From a virus: DNA of 64,000 nt. Position numbers and translations under genes: made by a program. The notes beneath the pieces were generated by a model. That model was given only the letters and a program-made list of their open reading frames with translations. It was not told the DNA's origin and made no database searches. The stretch is taken from the IMG/VR virus record IMGVR_UViG_3300025697_000021, positions 1-64,000 of that record; one strand, 5' to 3'. Below are positions 24,239 through 64,000 of this stretch, piece after piece. Position 1 is the stretch's first letter. Every line of letters starts with the position of its first letter.

Positions 24239-26572
24239 CTATTTAAATAGAGTATTAAAGCCTTTGTCCTTAGTTAGACCAAACAGCGTACGAGCTTCAT
24301 TGATAGGCATTCCAACTTCGGTTAGAAGTCGTTGCACTAGCATTTGAGCCTTGAGTGCTGGAACTTGGTCAGCAGTAGATGCTTTAACTTCTTGTTCCAT
24401 AATCTCGTTGTACACGCTAAGAGCAGTAGCCTCGGGGCTTGAGTCAGCTTCGGCAAACTCACCGCCTGGGGCGGGAGGTGCGTTAGGATCTGCTGGGGGA
24501 GCATTTGGGTCCGCAGGTGGATTTGGAACTCCTACTGGACCAGCTGGGGCCGGTGCTGCGGGAGCAGGAGCGGGCATTGCGGGTGCTGCTTGTGCTTCTC
24601 TAGTCAACATGGCAAACGCTTTATCAATTGAAGCTATAGGTGCTTTCCCCTCGTCCATCGATACCGGTGCTGGACCTGGAGCTGGGGCTGCAGGAAGAGT
24701 GTTAGGAGATCCTTTTGGATCTGCACCAGGGCCCAGTGGATCTACCGGAGGTTTAATGGGAGCTGCCGGGGCTGCTCCAGTCTCAGAAACGCCTGCACCA
24801 GGCTTACGTAGTTTAACCTGCATGATCTTGGTTTTATCTTCATCAGACATTGCTTGAACATCTTGATCAGTCCATCCTAGAGCCTTCAAACCTTCGTCGC
24901 CTGCGCCGGGTGCCGGTGCAGCAGGTTTAGGACCTTCTGCCGGTACGGGAGCGCCGGGGGCGGGAGCACCAGGGGCCGGTGCGGGAGCAGCGGGGCCTGG
25001 GTCAGGGCTTGAAGTTGGGGGTGTTGGGATTGCACCACCGGGACCATTTTGCATTTGGGCTTTTACAGTTTGTTGATTAGCTGGTTTAGGGGCTTCTTGA
25101 ACTGCAGGCTCAAACTTATCATCTACGGAGCGATCTGCTTGAACATTCTCTTTCTTAGCAGGAGCATCCTTCTTATCTTTTTTAGAGTCATTATCCTTGA
25201 CTAGGTCTCTACCATAATCTTTATAGTAATCAATCCAATAGGACTTGGCAGCTTCATCAACGGCTAGCTTATCAGTAGACATAGAACCGATACCCGTATC
25301 TACTGGAGTCTCAGCTAGGCCACCTGGAAGAGCGGGAACGTCTTGACCAGGACCAGCAGCGTTAGGGCGAGAACTTGCCCAATCATAACTATCCTCCTGC
25401 CCAAGAGATCTTGTCAAATGATAAAGGTCCTCTGCAGACTCAGCATCCATATCACGAGTATATGTACCATCTTGGCCCCAGTTCTCTTTAATGCGAGTAG
25501 CTGCAGAACCTAGACCGGCATTTTCTTTCATTTGCTGAATATAGGCAGTAATTTGGTGTGAACCATAATCCTGAGCTAGTTGAGCAATCACTTCCAGTTG
25601 AACGCCTCTTGAAAGGAGGTCATCGACGCTGTCCATATTCTCAGTACTGACCGCTTCTTTAATGTATTCAACTAGAGAAATGTCTTGACCTGATTTGCCA
25701 TGGATAGCTTCTTTAATTCGAGCTTCCATGTCGTGGCCCTCTTCCTCCTCGAGGTTCTCATCATACGGATCTTCTTCTTCCAATAGGGCGTCTTCCTGGG
25801 CCAACAGATGACGAGCATTCCATCTCTCAGTATCGCCAATATCTCTCAAGAGATTGGCTGAAGGAGAGGCGGCCACCATTTCTCTATAAGTAGCTTCTCG
25901 TTTAGGCTCTGCATAAGTATCCACAATACCGGCATTATGAAAATCATCTACTGGGGTGACTTGCTCTCCAACTACGGGTAGCTCACCGGATACTCCAGCA
26001 TAAGGAGAATTATCTTCAGAATCTTCAGAAGGTACGCTTATTGTAGAATCGTTCTGTGCTTGCTTCTCAGACTGAGTCGTTTGTTGTTCGTCACCCCAAT
26101 TAACTGAATTACCACCTGAGTCTGGCCCCAAGTTAGTATCCGGAAGTGTCATATCTGCACTATTTTCTGGAAGTTTAACTACTGAAGGATCAACCCAAGG
26201 TTTATCGCTTGTAGTATCAGTTCCCAAACCGGGTTCTGAAGTAGCACCTTGCGGAACAGGTTGCTTATTCACTTTAGGATCTGACCACGGCTTATCGCTT
26301 GTACTATCATCTTCCAGAGGGCCTGATCCTGAGGGAATAGCCTCAAAAGTTACTGGAGAAGGGGTCTTATCCGGCATTCCACCAGCTTCCTTCATGAAAT
26401 CAGCAATAGCCATTTCCAAATAACAGATGTCATTAGCGGTTTTAGCTCCATTAGGAGAAGAGATCTCAATATCATCATTCTCATCAATACGAGCTACCCA
26501 ACCCTTGATCTTAACAGTTTCACAGTTAAGGAGGGCTTCTTTTACTTCACTTGCATTCTTATAGGTCTTCAT
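24239..26572 (-). CDS. Large Pro/Ala-rich protein, probable virion or assembly protein
   Basis: 777 residues from ATG 26572, seven bases after AGGAGG. Order: a small N-terminal beta domain (TVKIKGWVARIDENDDIEIS), a disordered region with two copies of TSDKPW-x-DP, a helical middle, the segment KLAVDEAAKSYWIDYYKDYG (shared with 27847-28650), about 180 residues of Pro/Ala/Gly linker (PAPAPGAPAPGAPVP), and a helical C-terminus ending FGLTKDKGFNTLFK. This modular, linker-rich plan is typical of structural or scaffold proteins. Function unproven. Confidence 0.65.
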   Translation of the reverse strand: MKTYKNASEVKEALLNCETVKIKGWVARIDENDDIEISSPNGAKTANDICYLEMAIADFMKEAGGMPDKTPSPVTFEAIPSGSGPLEDDSTSDKPWSDPKVNKQPVPQGATSEPGLGTDTTSDKPWVDPSVVKLPENSADMTLPDTNLGPDSGGNSVNWGDEQQTTQSEKQAQNDSTISVPSEDSEDNSPYAGVSGELPVVGEQVTPVDDFHNAGIVDTYAEPKREATYREMVAASPSANLLRDIGDTERWNARHLLAQEDALLEEEDPYDENLEEEEGHDMEARIKEAIHGKSGQDISLVEYIKEAVSTENMDSVDDLLSRGVQLEVIAQLAQDYGSHQITAYIQQMKENAGLGSAATRIKENWGQDGTYTRDMDAESAEDLYHLTRSLGQEDSYDWASSRPNAAGPGQDVPALPGGLAETPVDTGIGSMSTDKLAVDEAAKSYWIDYYKDYGRDLVKDNDSKKDKKDAPAKKENVQADRSVDDKFEPAVQEAPKPANQQTVKAQMQNGPGGAIPTPPTSSPDPGPAAPAPAPGAPAPGAPVPAEGPKPAAPAPGAGDEGLKALGWTDQDVQAMSDEDKTKIMQVKLRKPGAGVSETGAAPAAPIKPPVDPLGPGADPKGSPNTLPAAPAPGPAPVSMDEGKAPIASIDKAFAMLTREAQAAPAMPAPAPAAPAPAGPVGVPNPPADPNAPPADPNAPPAPGGEFAEADSSPEATALSVYNEIMEQEVKASTADQVPALKAQMLVQRLLTEVGMPINEARTLFGLTKDKGFNTLFK

Positions 26573-26585
26573 AGTCAATCCTCCT

Positions 26586-27269
26586 CTACCAGCTGCCGTC
26601 TTCGTCTGCATTAATTAACATCTCTGCAGTTTTATGGGCTTCTGGTTCACCATTGATCAATGCTAGAATAAAGTTGCGTGACTTCTTCTGGAAAGGATTT
26701 CCCCCCGCAAGTCCAGCTTCTTTAATATAGTAATCATAATCTTCTTGAGTTCTAATTTGGCTTGCAACATGCACAAGGTCTTCAACCGGAAGCATGAAAT
26801 ACCCATTAGAGCTAATATCTTCAATTAGGTTAGATGCTGCGGATTTAGGATAGTTCCTGTTGTAGTGGTCCTTAACCTTTAGCATATCAGATACCGTCAG
26901 GTTGGCTGTACGATCCCGTTTCCACAACTTCTCTAGATGAGTTGTCAGGATACGAACTCCTAGGTCTCTAGGGGCGTGCTTAGCTGCGCTCTTGGCTTGC
27001 TGATAAGCCTCAAACACTGAAGAAACGGGAAGACTTCCATCTACTCTATCCACTTCCTTCTCAAGCTCTTCAGCAACTACCTTTCGCATCCAATCAATAT
27101 GGCGCTCGTTAAGCTCTTTACCATTTTCATAAGCAGCTTCTTTTTGAAGGTCTTCTTCTTTTAGCTCAGTAACCACGCCTGCGAACTTACTAGCTAGTCG
27201 AGAGTAGTCAACAGTGGCTTGTTTTTCTCCAGTTAGGTCTTCGAGATGTTGATATACGTTTTTACTCAT
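26586..27269 (-). CDS. Hypothetical helical protein, 227 aa
   Basis: ATG 27269 follows GGGAG; the 5' leader is about 35 bases and contains a small inverted repeat. All-helical, with RHIDWMRKVVAEELEKEVDR and HYNRNYPKSAASNLIED, and the ending AEMLINADEDGSW. First gene of the long 27269 to 20305 operon. Not recognised. Confidence 0.6.
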   Translation of the reverse strand: MSKNVYQHLEDLTGEKQATVDYSRLASKFAGVVTELKEEDLQKEAAYENGKELNERHIDWMRKVVAEELEKEVDRVDGSLPVSSVFEAYQQAKSAAKHAPRDLGVRILTTHLEKLWKRDRTANLTVSDMLKVKDHYNRNYPKSAASNLIEDISSNGYFMLPVEDLVHVASQIRTQEDYDYYIKEAGLAGGNPFQKKSRNFILALINGEPEAHKTAEMLINADEDGSW

Positions 27270-27661: not shown

Positions 27662-27862
27662 CTATAGGGGCTCTAAATTGGTTTCTGTAATCTTCTGTAG
27701 ATAGCCCCAAGCATCATCTGTCTGATTAGCATCAAGAAGCTGCTCGAGTACTTGAGTCTGCTCTGGAGAGGCTTTTTCATAGAAAGCCATCATCTCTTCA
27801 AATCCCAAATTACCGGGATAGGAAGCAGCCTCTTTAATAAATTGGATTACTCTACTTTTTTT
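27662..27862 (-). CDS. -1 frame extension of the 27847 gene
   Basis: A 66-codon frame with clear coding character (VIQFIKEAASYPGNLGFEEM, then EQLLDANQTDDAWGYLQK). It has no start codon near its beginning: a TAA in this frame lies right at the start of the A9 run (27856-27864), so the only entry is through that run. It is in -1 frame to the 27847-28650 gene, which stops nine bases after the run. Best explained as the second half of a protein made by -1 slippage on A9. A short internal start (ATG about 27800) is the alternative. Confidence 0.6.
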   Translation of the reverse strand, partial: KKSRVIQFIKEAASYPGNLGFEEMMAFYEKASPEQTQVLEQLLDANQTDDAWGYLQKITETNLEPL

Positions 27863-28650
27863 TTAGAATTAGATGGGGAGATCTTCTTAGGAATGTCTTT
27901 AGTCAGTGCTTTACCGTAGCCAGCCTCTGAGAAATAGTTCTGCCAGTAGGCTGCCGCGACGGCGTCTACGCCACATTTAGTCAGCCAGTCACAGGCAACA
28001 TCAGCTCTGATTCTTTTTTTAACTTCCTTCACAAGCTGCTCACCATATTCTCCATAATAAGCAGTCCAATAATCTGCAGCAACGCTATCTACAGCTAGCT
28101 TACAAAGACCCTGCCTAGCCTCTTCAAACAGACTTGCTACTTTTTGAGCAGGCGCACCATACTCATTAACAGCAGACTCTTCGTTACCAGATCGAATTTC
28201 CTCTACAATTGCCTTAACGGCAGATTTACCCATGATGTCCATGTCGTCTAGTAGGTCCGCTGCAGCAATAAAAGGCACATTCAAGTACTTAGACGCTTGA
28301 CGAGTCTTCATACCATGTACAACAAACTCTCTAATCTCTGCTACTGTATCAAAGCCATATTCATCATTAAGTTCAGTCCAAGTCTTAACTAGGGGCGGGA
28401 TGTCTCCAGCTGCTTTTAGTTGAGTTGCTGTTACCTCAAATCTAGCACAGATAGACTTAGGGATCTCCATTTTAGGGTGATCTAGCTCGTCTACCACACC
28501 GGCACCGAATAGGCCCCAGGCACTAGCTGACACTACTCGAGCGTACTCGTTAGCATCGAATTCTTCTCGTTCTGCAACAGTTCTATTGACGATTACGTTA
28601 CCGTGCTCATCCTTTTCCGCGTTCCATAGGTGATGTGATTGTTTTTTCAT
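27847..28650 (-). CDS. Helical protein with YW-repeat, frameshift donor
   Basis: 267 residues from ATG 28650 (GGAG six bases upstream). Helical throughout. Two copies of a motif occur near residues 190-250: ADYWTAYYGEYGEQLVKE and AAYWQNYFSEAGYGKALTKD; the first is also present in the 24239 protein. The end PKKISPSNSKKKVE is coded over a run of nine A, after which -1 slippage would add 66 residues. Probably a virion-associated protein by context; function unknown. Confidence 0.65.
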   Translation of the reverse strand: MKKQSHHLWNAEKDEHGNVIVNRTVAEREEFDANEYARVVSASAWGLFGAGVVDELDHPKMEIPKSICARFEVTATQLKAAGDIPPLVKTWTELNDEYGFDTVAEIREFVVHGMKTRQASKYLNVPFIAAADLLDDMDIMGKSAVKAIVEEIRSGNEESAVNEYGAPAQKVASLFEEARQGLCKLAVDSVAADYWTAYYGEYGEQLVKEVKKRIRADVACDWLTKCGVDAVAAAYWQNYFSEAGYGKALTKDIPKKISPSNSKKKVE

Positions 28651-28668
28651 TATATTCTCCATCGTAGC

Positions 28669-29248: not shown

Positions 29249-29599
29249 CTAGTTACCTAACTCTTCCCAATTCCAAGGCCTACCTTCAGGATCTGCTTCT
29301 TGGGGAGACTCAGCGTTAATTTCATCCCAATTCCAAGGCCTACCTTCAGGATCTGCTTCTTGGGGAGACTCAGCGTTAGCTGCTTCAGTACTAAGAGCCC
29401 TACTTAATACGTCCCATCTAATTCCTTGCGCATCCTCTACCGAGCTAACTAAACCAGACTCCATAAGGAGTTGATAGATAGCCGCCTCCGGCCCACTCAA
29501 ACTCTCTGCAGTCATTTGAGCTTTTTTAGTAGCAGGACCCCTCTTGTTTGCAGAAGCAATCCGCTTAAGAGCGCTATTCGATAAACTAAGTTTTGACAT
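29249..29599 (-). CDS. Protein with a duplicated 20-aa C-terminal motif
   Basis: 116 residues. After a basic N-terminus and a helix, the C-terminus contains two tandem copies of INAESPQEADPEGRPWNWDE (the second ends EE). The DNA is repeated exactly over 54 bases with a 60-base period, so the duplication is recent. AGGAG precedes ATG 29599, inside the previous gene. The Trp-rich motif could be a short docking peptide. Function unknown. Confidence 0.6.
   Translation of the reverse strand: MSKLSLSNSALKRIASANKRGPATKKAQMTAESLSGPEAAIYQLLMESGLVSSVEDAQGIRWDVLSRALSTEAANAESPQEADPEGRPWNWDEINAESPQEADPEGRPWNWEELGN
29265..29378. repeat. Tandem 60-bp repeat, two copies
   Basis: 29265-29318 and 29325-29378 are identical, period 60 bases (20 codons), inside 29249-29599. 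Confidence 0.92.
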
Positions 29600-58068: not shown

Positions 58069-60954
58069 TTACCTCAAATATCGTAAAAGTTCAGCTTTAC
58101 CGATTGATAGGAGTTTCTCGTTCTCTACTGTCAGCGCATCCGCTATATCTCCCTTACCTTCCAATTTCATCCTAACTAGCTCATCCAGCGACCCTACTAC
58201 GTCCAAGAATATCAGCGTAGCAGGTTGCGATCTCATTCTGTCCAACCAGGTAAGCTCACCTACAGTTTTAACACGCCTGTGAATCCTGTCAAGGGATTGT
58301 TTGTACTGAGTATAGGAATAGGGTCGGTCGATATAGATCGCAGTGCGAGCCCTTGCCAAAAAGTCGGTTCCCGTACCTGCTTTAGCTGGAATAGCTGCAG
58401 CAATTCGTATCTTGGGGTCATACTCGAAGGAGTTTGCAAGAGCATCATCGATCTCCACCCCACCACGTATCTTCACAACTCCGTACAGGGCATTCCAGCG
58501 GTCGTAGATGAAGTCGATAGCCCTTCGGTACTCAGACCAGATGATCACCTTCTGCTCGGGGTCTGACATCACCTCCTCGAGGATAGAATCCAATTCGAGG
58601 TACTTCGCGGACTCACAAGTCTCGTCAATGAACTGCGGGTGGTTTAGCAACTGTCTCAGTCGAACCGTTTTTGCACTATCTGCGAAGAACTTGGCCAGGT
58701 TGATCTTACTAGAACTGGAAAGATCTGCTATGATTTCATTGCAGACCGCTTTGTACAGCTTCTCTTGCTTTCCGGAAAGGATAACATCTCTAATAATGGT
58801 AGTCTTATCCGGGAATCCTACCATGTCCTCTTTTGTGCGCCGGATAGAGACTGCCTCTAGTCGGGATTTCAATTCTCCCAGATTTTTGTACCCCACAACC
58901 TTATCAAACGATATTTGACGGGACCGGCGACCCTTCTTCCCGTTTACGCCTTTTTTAGGCTTGAGTGTCATGGTCTTTTTCTCTTTATGTGTGAAATACG
59001 TCTCAAACCTTGAAATATTAGGAAGGTGCTCATTGCTGAGTACTTTCAAAGTTACATACGCATTCATTGGAGACTCTGAAACCGGAGTACCGGTCATCAG
59101 GATAGCTCGGGGCGGCTTCGCCTCCCGGTCCCGTAACTCTGCCAGGAGAGATAGCACGCACTTTGACCTTTTAGCATCATCGTTTTTATACATGTGCCAC
59201 TCGTCTACTATTACCATGTCGAATTTCATGGTTTTCAGGAGCTTAGTAACATCTCCATAGATGGCCTGCTTGCCAGAAGCAATCAGGTTCTCTGGGTGTA
59301 CTAGCATAAGATCCCAGTTACCCGTTTTATGTTTTTTCAAGAATTCAAGAGAAACTTTCCGTCCCGGAGGGATAGACACAGAGGTTAGGTGGGTGTGTTT
59401 TTCGATCTCGCGCCCGAACCCTAGCATAACCGATTTAGGGCAGATTACTAACGTCCTCCGGACCTTAGGACCCAATGAAATTAATGATCCTAGCGCCTGA
59501 ATAGTATTATGAGTTACGATGAAATCATCTGTGATGTACAACTGGTCAGGCGCATCTACAGAAATACACTGAGCTTCCTTTTCTCCCACGCACTCCACCT
59601 TATCAAAGCCTCTCGTAGGAGGGTACTTAGTTCTGGGTTTCCAGACATCAGCTTTCCTAGATAATTTAAAGGGCGTGTCATTTCCGGGAAATGATATGTG
59701 TAACCTGTACGCCAGTTGACCTTCTTTTTTCTTCCCCTTATACGTATACGTAGGTGTTTTAGTGCTAAGAGTAGCCTTTCCACCAAAAGACCACACTAAA
59801 AATTGAGCATCTAGGGCTAGCCGCTCCGATACAGATACATATTCAATATTACTACTTGGGGAACAATACCCGTCCGCGTCAAATAAGCCCCTCAACAGCT
59901 CTAGCCTAGACTCTTTAGATGCAAATTTATAAATATCGGGAATAAACTTAGAGTTAGACTTCCGGCCCATTAAATCTAGGCCCCTAAGCATATCTAAAAC
60001 TACATTAGCATAATGACCTTCAGTTTTAGAAATACCATAAGTTATAGTACCAACACGCCTCCTTATATACACTTCTTCCGGGAGTAGCCTCCCAATATTA
60101 GAAACTACTTCAGCATCCTCAGTCGTAAACGACACATTTTGATGTGATAAGCCTCCATCCCCTAGCAAGAACCCTAGTACATAAGGATGCAGCGGAAGCT
60201 CCCGCTCTTCGAACTCAATAGGCTTAACTATGGGTATATAATGCTTGCGGTTCCCATTTTTATAAAAAAGATCATCTTTAAAATTCTGCAACTGACGTAC
60301 CTTAGGCCTGCACCCTTGATACTTAGAGCTAGGGCTCTGGATATGCCATAGATGCTCTCCACAACATTCCGTAGAAGCTCCATCTGAGAAAGTAACTCTA
60401 TACACAAGACGTTTACCTTGAGGAAAAACTCCAATAACCTTAGAAGTACCCCCTTGCGAGTTAATAATAGGGTCACCTACTTGCACGTCTCCCATTAACA
60501 CCCACCCAGTGGGTGTTAATATCTTAGAGGATAGGGGCTGCGCTTTGCCCACCCCCATCGAATCAAACAAACCGGACCTTCTATTCTGTATGCAATAGGA
60601 TATTCCTGTTAGTTGATCTACGTATGGAACAGTCTTCAGCTTGCCTTCTAGGGATTGCTCCACCAACTCATTGTGAATTCCCTTTTTTATATCGTTGTTC
60701 CTTTTGTCGGAAGCCTGATAGTCCTTTATTAAGGTCATAGCCGCCTTGGTCATCGTGCGCCCCTCGACCAAGCCCATTGAGTCCAACTTCTTTTTAAGAG
60801 CTAACAGATCCATATAACTTAATGTATACACATCTGGCTCAGCCCCTTTCGCAGAAAGGAGCGATCTCAGAAGTAGATACACTCGAGCGTAGAACTCATG
60901 ACTAATGTCCAATTTAGCAGCAAACTCAGTCCCTCTTGCGTCAATCTTGATCAT
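58069..60954 (-). CDS. SNF2-family helicase with an in-frame intein
   Basis: 961 residues before splicing, about 615 after removal of a 346-residue intein. The host protein is an SNF2/Rad54-like DNA translocase: the Walker A DSMGVGK-T is split by the intein after Lys137, then DEWHMYKN (Walker B), TGTPVSES (motif III), and in the C-terminal lobe IWSEYRRAIDF and QSLDRIHRR (motif VI). Probably remodels DNA or replication complexes. Start overlaps the ThyX-like gene by 14 bases. Confidence 0.9.
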   Translation of the reverse strand: MIKIDARGTEFAAKLDISHEFYARVYLLLRSLLSAKGAEPDVYTLSYMDLLALKKKLDSMGLVEGRTMTKAAMTLIKDYQASDKRNNDIKKGIHNELVEQSLEGKLKTVPYVDQLTGISYCIQNRRSGLFDSMGVGKAQPLSSKILTPTGWVLMGDVQVGDPIINSQGGTSKVIGVFPQGKRLVYRVTFSDGASTECCGEHLWHIQSPSSKYQGCRPKVRQLQNFKDDLFYKNGNRKHYIPIVKPIEFEERELPLHPYVLGFLLGDGGLSHQNVSFTTEDAEVVSNIGRLLPEEVYIRRRVGTITYGISKTEGHYANVVLDMLRGLDLMGRKSNSKFIPDIYKFASKESRLELLRGLFDADGYCSPSSNIEYVSVSERLALDAQFLVWSFGGKATLSTKTPTYTYKGKKKEGQLAYRLHISFPGNDTPFKLSRKADVWKPRTKYPPTRGFDKVECVGEKEAQCISVDAPDQLYITDDFIVTHNTIQALGSLISLGPKVRRTLVICPKSVMLGFGREIEKHTHLTSVSIPPGRKVSLEFLKKHKTGNWDLMLVHPENLIASGKQAIYGDVTKLLKTMKFDMVIVDEWHMYKNDDAKRSKCVLSLLAELRDREAKPPRAILMTGTPVSESPMNAYVTLKVLSNEHLPNISRFETYFTHKEKKTMTLKPKKGVNGKKGRRSRQISFDKVVGYKNLGELKSRLEAVSIRRTKEDMVGFPDKTTIIRDVILSGKQEKLYKAVCNEIIADLSSSSKINLAKFFADSAKTVRLRQLLNHPQFIDETCESAKYLELDSILEEVMSDPEQKVIIWSEYRRAIDFIYDRWNALYGVVKIRGGVEIDDALANSFEYDPKIRIAAAIPAKAGTGTDFLARARTAIYIDRPYSYTQYKQSLDRIHRRVKTVGELTWLDRMRSQPATLIFLDVVGSLDELVRMKLEGKGDIADALTVENEKLLSIGKAELLRYLR
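59506..60543 (-). mobile_element. Intein with LAGLIDADG homing endonuclease, class 3-like
   Basis: Residues 138-483 of the SNF2 helicase. Begins Ala-Gln-Pro instead of Cys or Ser and ends THN before Thr484. Block B has ECCGEHLW (Trp203), block F AQCISVDAPDQLY (Cys463), block G IVTHN (Thr481): the W-C-T set that defines class 3 inteins, which splice through an internal Cys. LAGLIDADG motifs at about 258-268 (YVLGFLLGDGG) and 351-362 (LELLRGLFDADG) form the homing endonuclease. Inserted in the helicase Walker A, a common intein target site. Confidence 0.9.
60494..60520. repeat. Intragenic hairpin, 12-bp stem
   Basis: Perfect 12-bp stem, 3-base loop, in the first codons of the intein. Confidence 0.88.
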
Positions 60955-62390: not shown

Positions 62391-62645
62391 TTACTTACCC
62401 GCTACCATTTCCGTAAAATCCTGTTTATAGTTATCACAGAATCCATTATAGGCCACGAGGCGACCCACAGTCCAGTGTTCATACTCATCCTTGTCTTCGT
62501 CCTCAGGACCTCTAGAAGACCAGGATGGTACTTCTGAATTATCAGAGTTGCAGTAAAAAATGGGAGCAACTCCCATTACCCTGAGAACGTGCACGCATTT
62601 ACAGTTCTGACACGATCTTACTATTTCATAACTTGGGTGAATCAT
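62391..62645 (-). CDS. 84-aa Cys-cluster protein
   Basis: SCQNCKCVHVLR near the start and FYCNSD and FCDNY later give four or five Cys spaced like a metal or Fe-S site; the middle is acidic (GPEDEDKDEYE). A promoter at 62657-62685 starts only about five bases before ATG 62645, so its leader is very short. Function unknown. Confidence 0.6.
   Translation of the reverse strand: MIHPSYEIVRSCQNCKCVHVLRVMGVAPIFYCNSDNSEVPSWSSRGPEDEDKDEYEHWTVGRLVAYNGFCDNYKQDFTEMVAGK
62559..62577. repeat. Intragenic hairpin, 8-bp stem
   Basis: Perfect 8-bp stem, 3-base loop, in the 62391 gene. Confidence 0.6.
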
Positions 62646-64000
62646 TTCTTCCGCCTATTATCCAAAAATTCCTTAATTTTGTCAACCCCAAAGTTCCAAT
62701 CAGCAATCTTCCCCGGAGATCTGATAATATCTATAGGATCGGGAAGGACTGCAACGAAACAACTATAGTCACCTATAGTTTGTTTCTCAATTTCACCTAC
62801 ATGCCTCAACACTCCATATTTGTATGGAGTCGTTGAGGCCATCGCTTCATTACCAAATGAGATAATAAGCTTCGGCTGTACCAGCCGAAGCTCCTCTTTC
62901 AAAAATCTAGAACACGCCTCAATTGAACTGTACAAAAGTGGGCTATATCCTGAAGGACATTTGCAAACGTTAGTAAGCCAGCACGTATCCTTTTTAATCT
63001 CTATGTTTTCCAAAAGCTCATCTAAATAAACCATCCGAGGCTCATCGAACGTAATATCTTTACCCAGTAGCATGATATTTGCATTACTCGGCCCGAGAGG
63101 TTGACTTCTTATCGAAGGGTGCTTCATATTACAGCCTCGACATCTGTTTACGTCATCTGTAAGAAATCCTAAATCTGGATACTGGTATGATAAAGGCTTC
63201 ACTACCTTCTCCGCGTCAACCCAGGCCTTAAACTGCTCTAGCTCTTCTGACAAATCCGACACAAACCTCTGATGACATCTAGCCCCAATAAGCTCAATCT
63301 CTAAAGGCGCTTTCAAAGAATCAGCCACTACAGGCTTCTCCAGCTCCTCGTGAAAAACCTTTAACTCGACTTCATTCATGAAGTGGCCCATATCGCCCAA
63401 CACCGGTAACTTAACCAATTGATAAGAATGCTCTAGATCATGGGATTTATCAATTATTTTAGCTGTGGTTTTCTTGGCCAGGAGCTTCTTGCTATTTGCT
63501 GGATCTAATAAAGAAGTAATATCCCCATATTCCTCTATCAGTTTCAGAGCAGTTTTGTTCCCTATTCCCTTAACCCCTTTTATATTGTCGGAAGGGTCTC
63601 CTACGAGAGCCTTCCAATCCGGGATCAAGCTAGGAGTAATACCTAGCTCCTCTTGAACATCTACAGGCTGTACAAGGGTATTAGAGAGAGGATCAAAAAT
63701 AGTAACTCTATCTGAAATAAGTTGCCAAAGATCCTTATCGCGAGAAGCGATAAGGACTTTATGAGTATGTGCGAAATATTCAGCAAACCAAGCTATCATG
63801 TCATCTGCTTCTACTCCAGGAACAGTTATATTCCGTACCCCAAAATATGAAAGGATTCTCTTGGCGTCTTCTTTCTGAATGCCCATCTCTTTAAGGTTGA
63901 TCTTAGCTTTACGATCCTCTCTTGAAGCCTTGTACTCCGGGTACATGGTGGTCCTCCACCTAGATTTACCTTTGTCCCATAAAATAAGAACATTGCTGCA
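62642..64000 (-). CDS. 5'-3' exonuclease fused to uracil-DNA-glycosylase-like domain (5' end outside)
   Basis: At least 452 residues; the start lies beyond the right edge because the frame stays open and encodes WDKGKSRWRTTMYPEYKASR at the edge, a normal FEN-type active-site stretch. Exonuclease part: GVEADDM, ASRDKDLWQL, GDPSDNIKGVKGIGNKTA (H3TH). C-terminal part (from about CRGCNMKHPS): Fe-S-type family-4 UDG pattern with TNVCKCPSG, CSRFLKEELRL and ISFGNEAMA, but the GE-PG motif region is shortened (GKDITFDEPRM), so glycosylase activity is doubtful. Would remove RNA primers and flaps. Confidence 0.85.
   Translation of the reverse strand, partial: CSNVLILWDKGKSRWRTTMYPEYKASREDRKAKINLKEMGIQKEDAKRILSYFGVRNITVPGVEADDMIAWFAEYFAHTHKVLIASRDKDLWQLISDRVTIFDPLSNTLVQPVDVQEELGITPSLIPDWKALVGDPSDNIKGVKGIGNKTALKLIEEYGDITSLLDPANSKKLLAKKTTAKIIDKSHDLEHSYQLVKLPVLGDMGHFMNEVELKVFHEELEKPVVADSLKAPLEIELIGARCHQRFVSDLSEELEQFKAWVDAEKVVKPLSYQYPDLGFLTDDVNRCRGCNMKHPSIRSQPLGPSNANIMLLGKDITFDEPRMVYLDELLENIEIKKDTCWLTNVCKCPSGYSPLLYSSIEACSRFLKEELRLVQPKLIISFGNEAMASTTPYKYGVLRHVGEIEKQTIGDYSCFVAVLPDPIDIIRSPGKIADWNFGVDKIKEFLDNRRKK
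62657..62685 (-). promoter_or_regulatory. Sigma-70-type promoter in the exonuclease 3' end
   Basis: TTGACA (62680-62685), 17 bp, GATAAT (62657-62662) in the last codons of the exonuclease gene; drives 62645 and on. Confidence 0.68.
62756..62786. repeat. Intragenic hairpin, 8+5 bp with bulge
   Basis: 8-bp stem with 4-base loop plus a 5-bp outer part across a bulge, in the exonuclease-UDG gene. Confidence 0.7.
62803..62839. repeat. Intragenic hairpin, 16 bp with one bulge
   Basis: Two 8-bp blocks (62803-62818 with 62823-62839) separated by one bulged base, 4-base loop, in the exonuclease-UDG gene. Confidence 0.85.
62868..62892. repeat. Intragenic hairpin, 11-bp stem
   Basis: Perfect 11-bp stem, 3-base loop, third hairpin in a 150-base stretch of the exonuclease-UDG gene. 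Confidence 0.88.
63732..63756. repeat. Intragenic hairpin, 10-bp stem
   Basis: Perfect 10-bp stem, 5-base loop, in the exonuclease part of the same gene. Confidence 0.85.

Follow-up and report, generated by a model that had tools for sequence, protein, structure and literature searches.

Organization of the locus

The window analysed here, a 64-kb stretch (64,000 nucleotides) that is part of a 68,126-base IMG/VR virus record of an uncultivated large phage, carries on its minus strand a gene whose protein contains two YW-x-x-Y[YF]-x-E-x-G repeats, and which is called the YW-repeat gene below (Table 1). As the preliminary description of this DNA had pointed out, the gene of 267 residues, or 271 when it is read from the upstream ATG, passes through a run of nine A and stops nine bases later. 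The junction reads CCA TCT AAT TCT AAA AAA AAA GTA GAG TAA on the minus strand, and the protein ends with ...SNSKKKVE-stop. Another frame of 66 codons, 64 of which follow the lysines, is found in the -1 frame, bounded by a TAA at the upstream edge of the run and by a TAG. The ATG of the next gene, which is zinc-ribbon-like, is located 14 nt past this TAG, so that the -1 frame fills the intergenic gap.

Table 1. Features at the end of the YW-repeat gene (positions in the window)
Feature	Position	Strand	Basis or remark
YW-repeat gene	27847..28662	minus	271 codons from ATG 28662, 267 from ATG 28650
A9 run, proposed slippage site	27856..27864	minus (T9 on plus strand)	sequence
TAA stop of frame 0	27847..27849	minus	last base begins the ATC of the -1 frame (UAAUC)
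TAA closing the -1 frame at the upstream edge of A9	27863..27865	minus	sequence
-1 frame, small three-helix phage domain and TAG	27662..27862	minus	profile, codon score, invariant residues, predicted helices; codons 27862-27665, TAG 27664-27662
Candidate rare start AUC (in UAAUC), -1 frame	27847-27845	minus	12 codons ahead of GN[IL]G
Candidate rare start AUU, -1 frame	27838-27836	minus	
Zinc-ribbon-like next gene, 100 codons	27345..27647	minus	homologous genes in the same position in G005 and G019

The A9 run is the sole homopolymer of eight or more bases in the window. Markov models of order 1-5 give about 1.1-2.1 expected A/T runs of nine or more per 64-kb window; the presence of the run is unremarkable by chance, and what is unusual is its placement exactly at the frame junction. 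Translation with varied run length revealed that the long frame is opened only by A7 and A10. The A8, A9, A11 and A12 variants all stop within two codons past the lysines and share nearly the same short end. The A10 variant gives a clean fusion of 333 residues (...SNSKKKSRVIQFIKEA...).

The -1 frame encodes a small phage domain

The preliminary description ascribed coding character to the 66-codon frame, and our analyses bore this out. The codon log-odds of the frame is 19.0. Real genes of the same virus, cut into 65-codon pieces, reach 16.6 +/- 5.5, and reading off frame gives -5.3 +/- 5.9. A domain profile, which was built from homologues in viral contigs with the window copy left out, was compared with all six frames of the window and matched in the -1 frame only, with E=1.2e-21. 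Six residues (G, N, G, E, M and L) are invariant in an alignment of 50 members, and all of them are present in the window copy. In the predicted structure (mean pLDDT 73), three helices come after a flexible N-terminus; a Foldseek search of the PDB with it gave no meaningful match. What the -1 frame encodes is a genuine, undamaged copy of a small domain that is widespread in phages.

This unnamed domain is characterized by EA-Y-GN[IL]G-EM. A degenerate pattern drawn up by hand from the motif of the window copy, GNLGxxEM followed by FY, matched 71 stretches in viral contigs, nearly all of which were judged by eye to be true homologues. In about 35 other viral contigs the domain forms a small separate gene with a start of its own, mostly 9-24 codons ahead of GN[IL]G; in others it is part of a larger protein. 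Separately started copies (L018 in the related virus G005, L061 and L065) have the same domain, the invariant residues and a length similar to that of the window copy. However, each starts at an ATG of its own and none has a homopolymer of eight or more within 120 nt upstream, whereas the window copy has A9 and no usual start. In Pfam and PHROGs, no family matches more than three members of the domain family, and those only weakly. A collection of isolate phages searched with three family members gave no match, and nucleotide and protein searches of isolate phages with both parts of the locus gave only weak repeat matches. Single-protein scans of viral contigs returned no relative of the locus, or only distant polymerases, and two scans of the genome collection found nothing.

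The N-terminus of the domain genes, MKxFxxFIxEA, resembles the capsid-targeting sequence of T4. A search for the T4-type prohead protease (PF03420) was positive in five of seven other phages that carry the domain, one of them with a split match, but negative in the window's virus and in all four of the relatives described below, and a T4-like capsid-targeting role is therefore unsupported here. A frameshift of the lambda G/GT tail chaperone type was also set aside, since no neighbour matches a tail family.

The YW-repeat locus in related viruses

Queries with the YW-repeat motif, with the domain and with aligned sequences of the 211-aa neighbour led to four syntenic relatives: G019 (L106), G005 (L094, L107), G004 (L086, L108) and G003 (L095, L109). 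Their YW-repeat proteins are 51, 39, 30 and 27% identical to that of the window, and they have in common, in whole or in part, the gene order 402-aa, 211-aa, YW-repeat, zinc ribbon, 232-aa and long repeat-rich gene. Small genes come and go around the locus. The YW-repeat proteins can be aligned as far as the second repeat extends; beyond it they diverge. The G005 protein ends at this point (ISPKSDD), 12 nt before the zinc-ribbon gene. The G019 protein continues in frame past TTPKASRKKA with three copies of another module, and those of G003 and G004 are extended in frame by a domain that is different again. In the window, ISPSNSKKK stands at the same point, followed by VE-stop in frame 0 or by the small domain in frame -1. 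Three of the four relatives thus extend in frame and one stops where the window protein stops, indicating that both lengths are tolerated.

The preliminary description proposed to check that relatives keep the run. None does: the A run is absent from G019, G005, G004 and G003. Nor is the domain found at the YW-repeat locus in any of the four. It is a separate 77-codon gene about 98 kb away in G005, and a search of G019, the nearest relative, gave no match. A separate or in-frame downstream gene in relatives had been named as evidence against slippage, and this was found in part: the domain is separately started in other phages including G005, and three relatives have in-frame C-terminal extensions, but these are made of other modules.

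Some other features were observed in the same genomes. Several long proteins of the window's virus, of its relatives and of the virus Rctr197k also contain the short YWxxY[YF]xEYG motif (window 24239-26611; L003; L084; L100). Many small proteins that are otherwise unrelated have an N-terminal motif like MKLRGLSDxAxxRIA: G005 has at least eight of them (L119, L121, L123), G019 four (L114, L116) and the window one (29249-29599). The motif looks like a shared signal for targeting or processing. At the 3' end of a 116-aa gene, about 63 bases are duplicated in tandem almost perfectly (29265-29380), so that ESPQEADPEGRPWNW is encoded twice. The SNF2-type helicase at 58069-60954 carries an intein-like LAGLIDADG insert (about 59506-60543) in its ATP-binding motif (GVGK-AQPLSSKIL...VTHN-TIQAL); the insert is missing in G005, and the G019 protein matches that of the window end to end. 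A single gene of 434 codons at 62642-63946 joins a 5'-3' exonuclease to a domain of the uracil-DNA glycosylase superfamily.

Start codons and recoding signals

No ATG, GTG or TTG precedes the conserved part of the -1 frame, and the first ATG is inside the domain. The lack of a start near the beginning of the frame and the TAA at the upstream edge of the run are as the preliminary description reported. The window copy is the only closed frame of the domain family in the set without one of these three codons. It has neither its own usual start nor an in-frame fusion, as the upstream gene is in the other frame. The candidate rare starts are an AUC, which overlaps the stop of the YW-repeat gene, and an AUU (Table 1); no Shine-Dalgarno core is found upstream of them.

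A slippery A AAA AAA heptamer is present in the right phase for -1 ribosomal frameshifting. No stimulatory RNA structure stands out downstream of the junction (fold z -0.31), no Shine-Dalgarno-like stimulator (GAGG, AGGA or GGAG) is found within 40 nt upstream of it, and no RNA family fits in a family search at the junction. With neither a downstream structure nor an upstream stimulator, a dedicated ribosomal frameshift signal is not indicated by the sequence, and the site is not conserved in related genomes. Transcriptional slippage at a lineage-specific junction is therefore favoured. The same absence of the run in the four syntenic relatives, together with the lack of an evident stimulatory structure or Shine-Dalgarno core, argues against the words "programmed" and "classic", which had been applied to this site.

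Comparison with known slippage systems

Nine is the run length for which many genomes show clear selection against slippage (PMC1088944). Transcriptional slippage on the A9 of Thermus thermophilus dnaX gives about 50% slipped product (PMC1088944), and on the A11 of Citrobacter rodentium tssM1 it gives a short and a long TssM, at 20-25% (PMC4256274). Ribosomes also slide on iterated AAA (PMC4363877). The YW-repeat locus of the window resembles tssM1 and Yersinia pseudotuberculosis tssM3 (PMC4256274) in that poly-A lies just ahead of a stop, ribosomal stimulators are lacking, and an extra A leads into a downstream frame coding for a genuine C-terminal part, so that a short and a long protein would be made, as proposed here for the window. 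However, tssM1 has A11 and measured products, whereas the window has A9 and is known from sequence; and the C-terminal part of tssM1 is standard for its family, whereas that of the window is a domain usually found elsewhere. The window shares with dnaX nine A in the coding strand and, as proposed, two C-termini. Slippage leads to the shorter product in dnaX, whereas it would lead to the longer one in the window, where conservation of the run is not seen. In short, the window has an A run of about nine or more and an indel that joins a genuine coding frame, as in dnaX and tssM, but not a run kept in relatives.

Interpretation of the junction

We propose that slippage on A9 yields a 333-residue fusion beside the 271-residue protein at a junction that is specific to this lineage and not a conserved programmed switch, a reading to which we give an even chance. 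It is favoured by the coding -1 frame without a usual start, by the fact that only A10 or A7 opens this frame, by fusion of the domain to other proteins elsewhere and by the known slippage on A9-A11. Against it stand a run that is kept in no relative, a domain that is not at this locus in relatives and is mostly a separate gene, the roughly one A9 expected per 64 kb and the lack of a stimulatory structure. RNA polymerase would slip on A9 while copying the YW-repeat gene. Most transcripts, with A9 (or A8), would encode the short protein, which ends where that of G005 ends, and a minority with A10 would encode the 333-residue protein with the domain at its C-terminus; ribosomes sliding on AAA AAA AAA may contribute to the fusion. 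The domain follows immediately on the YW-repeat gene, with an A-rich linker between them. The junction itself may have arisen by deletion or recombination and then been rescued or tolerated through slippage; perhaps the start of a small gene was lost where it came to abut the A-rich end of the YW-repeat gene. That two proteins with different C-termini are produced, as the preliminary description suggested, is the likely output if the run is real, since the -1 frame is coding and has no usual start, and bacterial RNA polymerases slip at the length of A9 (PMC1088944).

The claim that the -1 frame can be entered only by slipping fits the lack of a usual start, but is too strong. The run may really be A10, or A9 and A10 may coexist in the population; the gene would then be an ordinary in-frame fusion of 333 codons, and the frameshift an assembly miscount of the homopolymer or one allele. 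A10 does give a clean fusion, three relatives extend in frame at the same point, and the longest homopolymer of the window is the likeliest site of a miscount. On the other hand, about 40 syntenic genes of the window each align to the relatives in one frame with no other frame break, so the base quality looks good, and the stop of G005 at the same point indicates that the short end is a natural state. We regard a miscounted or polymorphic run as rather unlikely. The domain could instead be a dead remnant, a small gene whose start codon disappeared in a deletion reaching into the A-rich end of the YW-repeat gene and which no longer yields useful amounts of protein. This agrees with the missing start codon, the unconserved run and the absence of the domain at the locus in relatives. 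However, the frame is unbroken throughout, it retains the six invariant residues and it scores like a live gene in codon use, so that any loss would be very recent; moreover, A9 would still yield some fusion. Such a remnant seems to us a little less probable than a wrong or variable run length.

Even less probable, in our view, is a separate small gene that begins at the AUC of UAAUC or at the AUU and is reinitiated by ribosomes finishing the YW-repeat gene. The position of the AUC falls within the usual range of starts before GN[IL]G in the roughly 35 contigs where the domain is separate, and the turnover of small genes around the locus would fit such a gene. But bacteria very rarely start translation at AUC or AUU, every other closed member of the family in the set has an ATG, GTG or TTG, and the Shine-Dalgarno core that is missing here is present in 51 of the 75 minus-strand ORFs of at least 100 codons. 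Returning to slippage, the domain is probably made only through slippage during copying of A9. A9 might further be a selected device that appends the domain to a fraction of the YW-repeat proteins and fixes the ratio of short to long forms, whereas the length in relatives would be determined by modules read in frame or by a simple stop; we consider this as doubtful as the miscounted run.

If slippage is real, this locus would be a phage counterpart of tssM, in which a coding part is kept alive only by the infidelity of the polymerase, and annotation pipelines would miss the -1 frame or call it a pseudogene. The analysis also brings out a small, well-conserved phage domain that no Pfam or PHROGs family covers and that occurs alone or within larger proteins.
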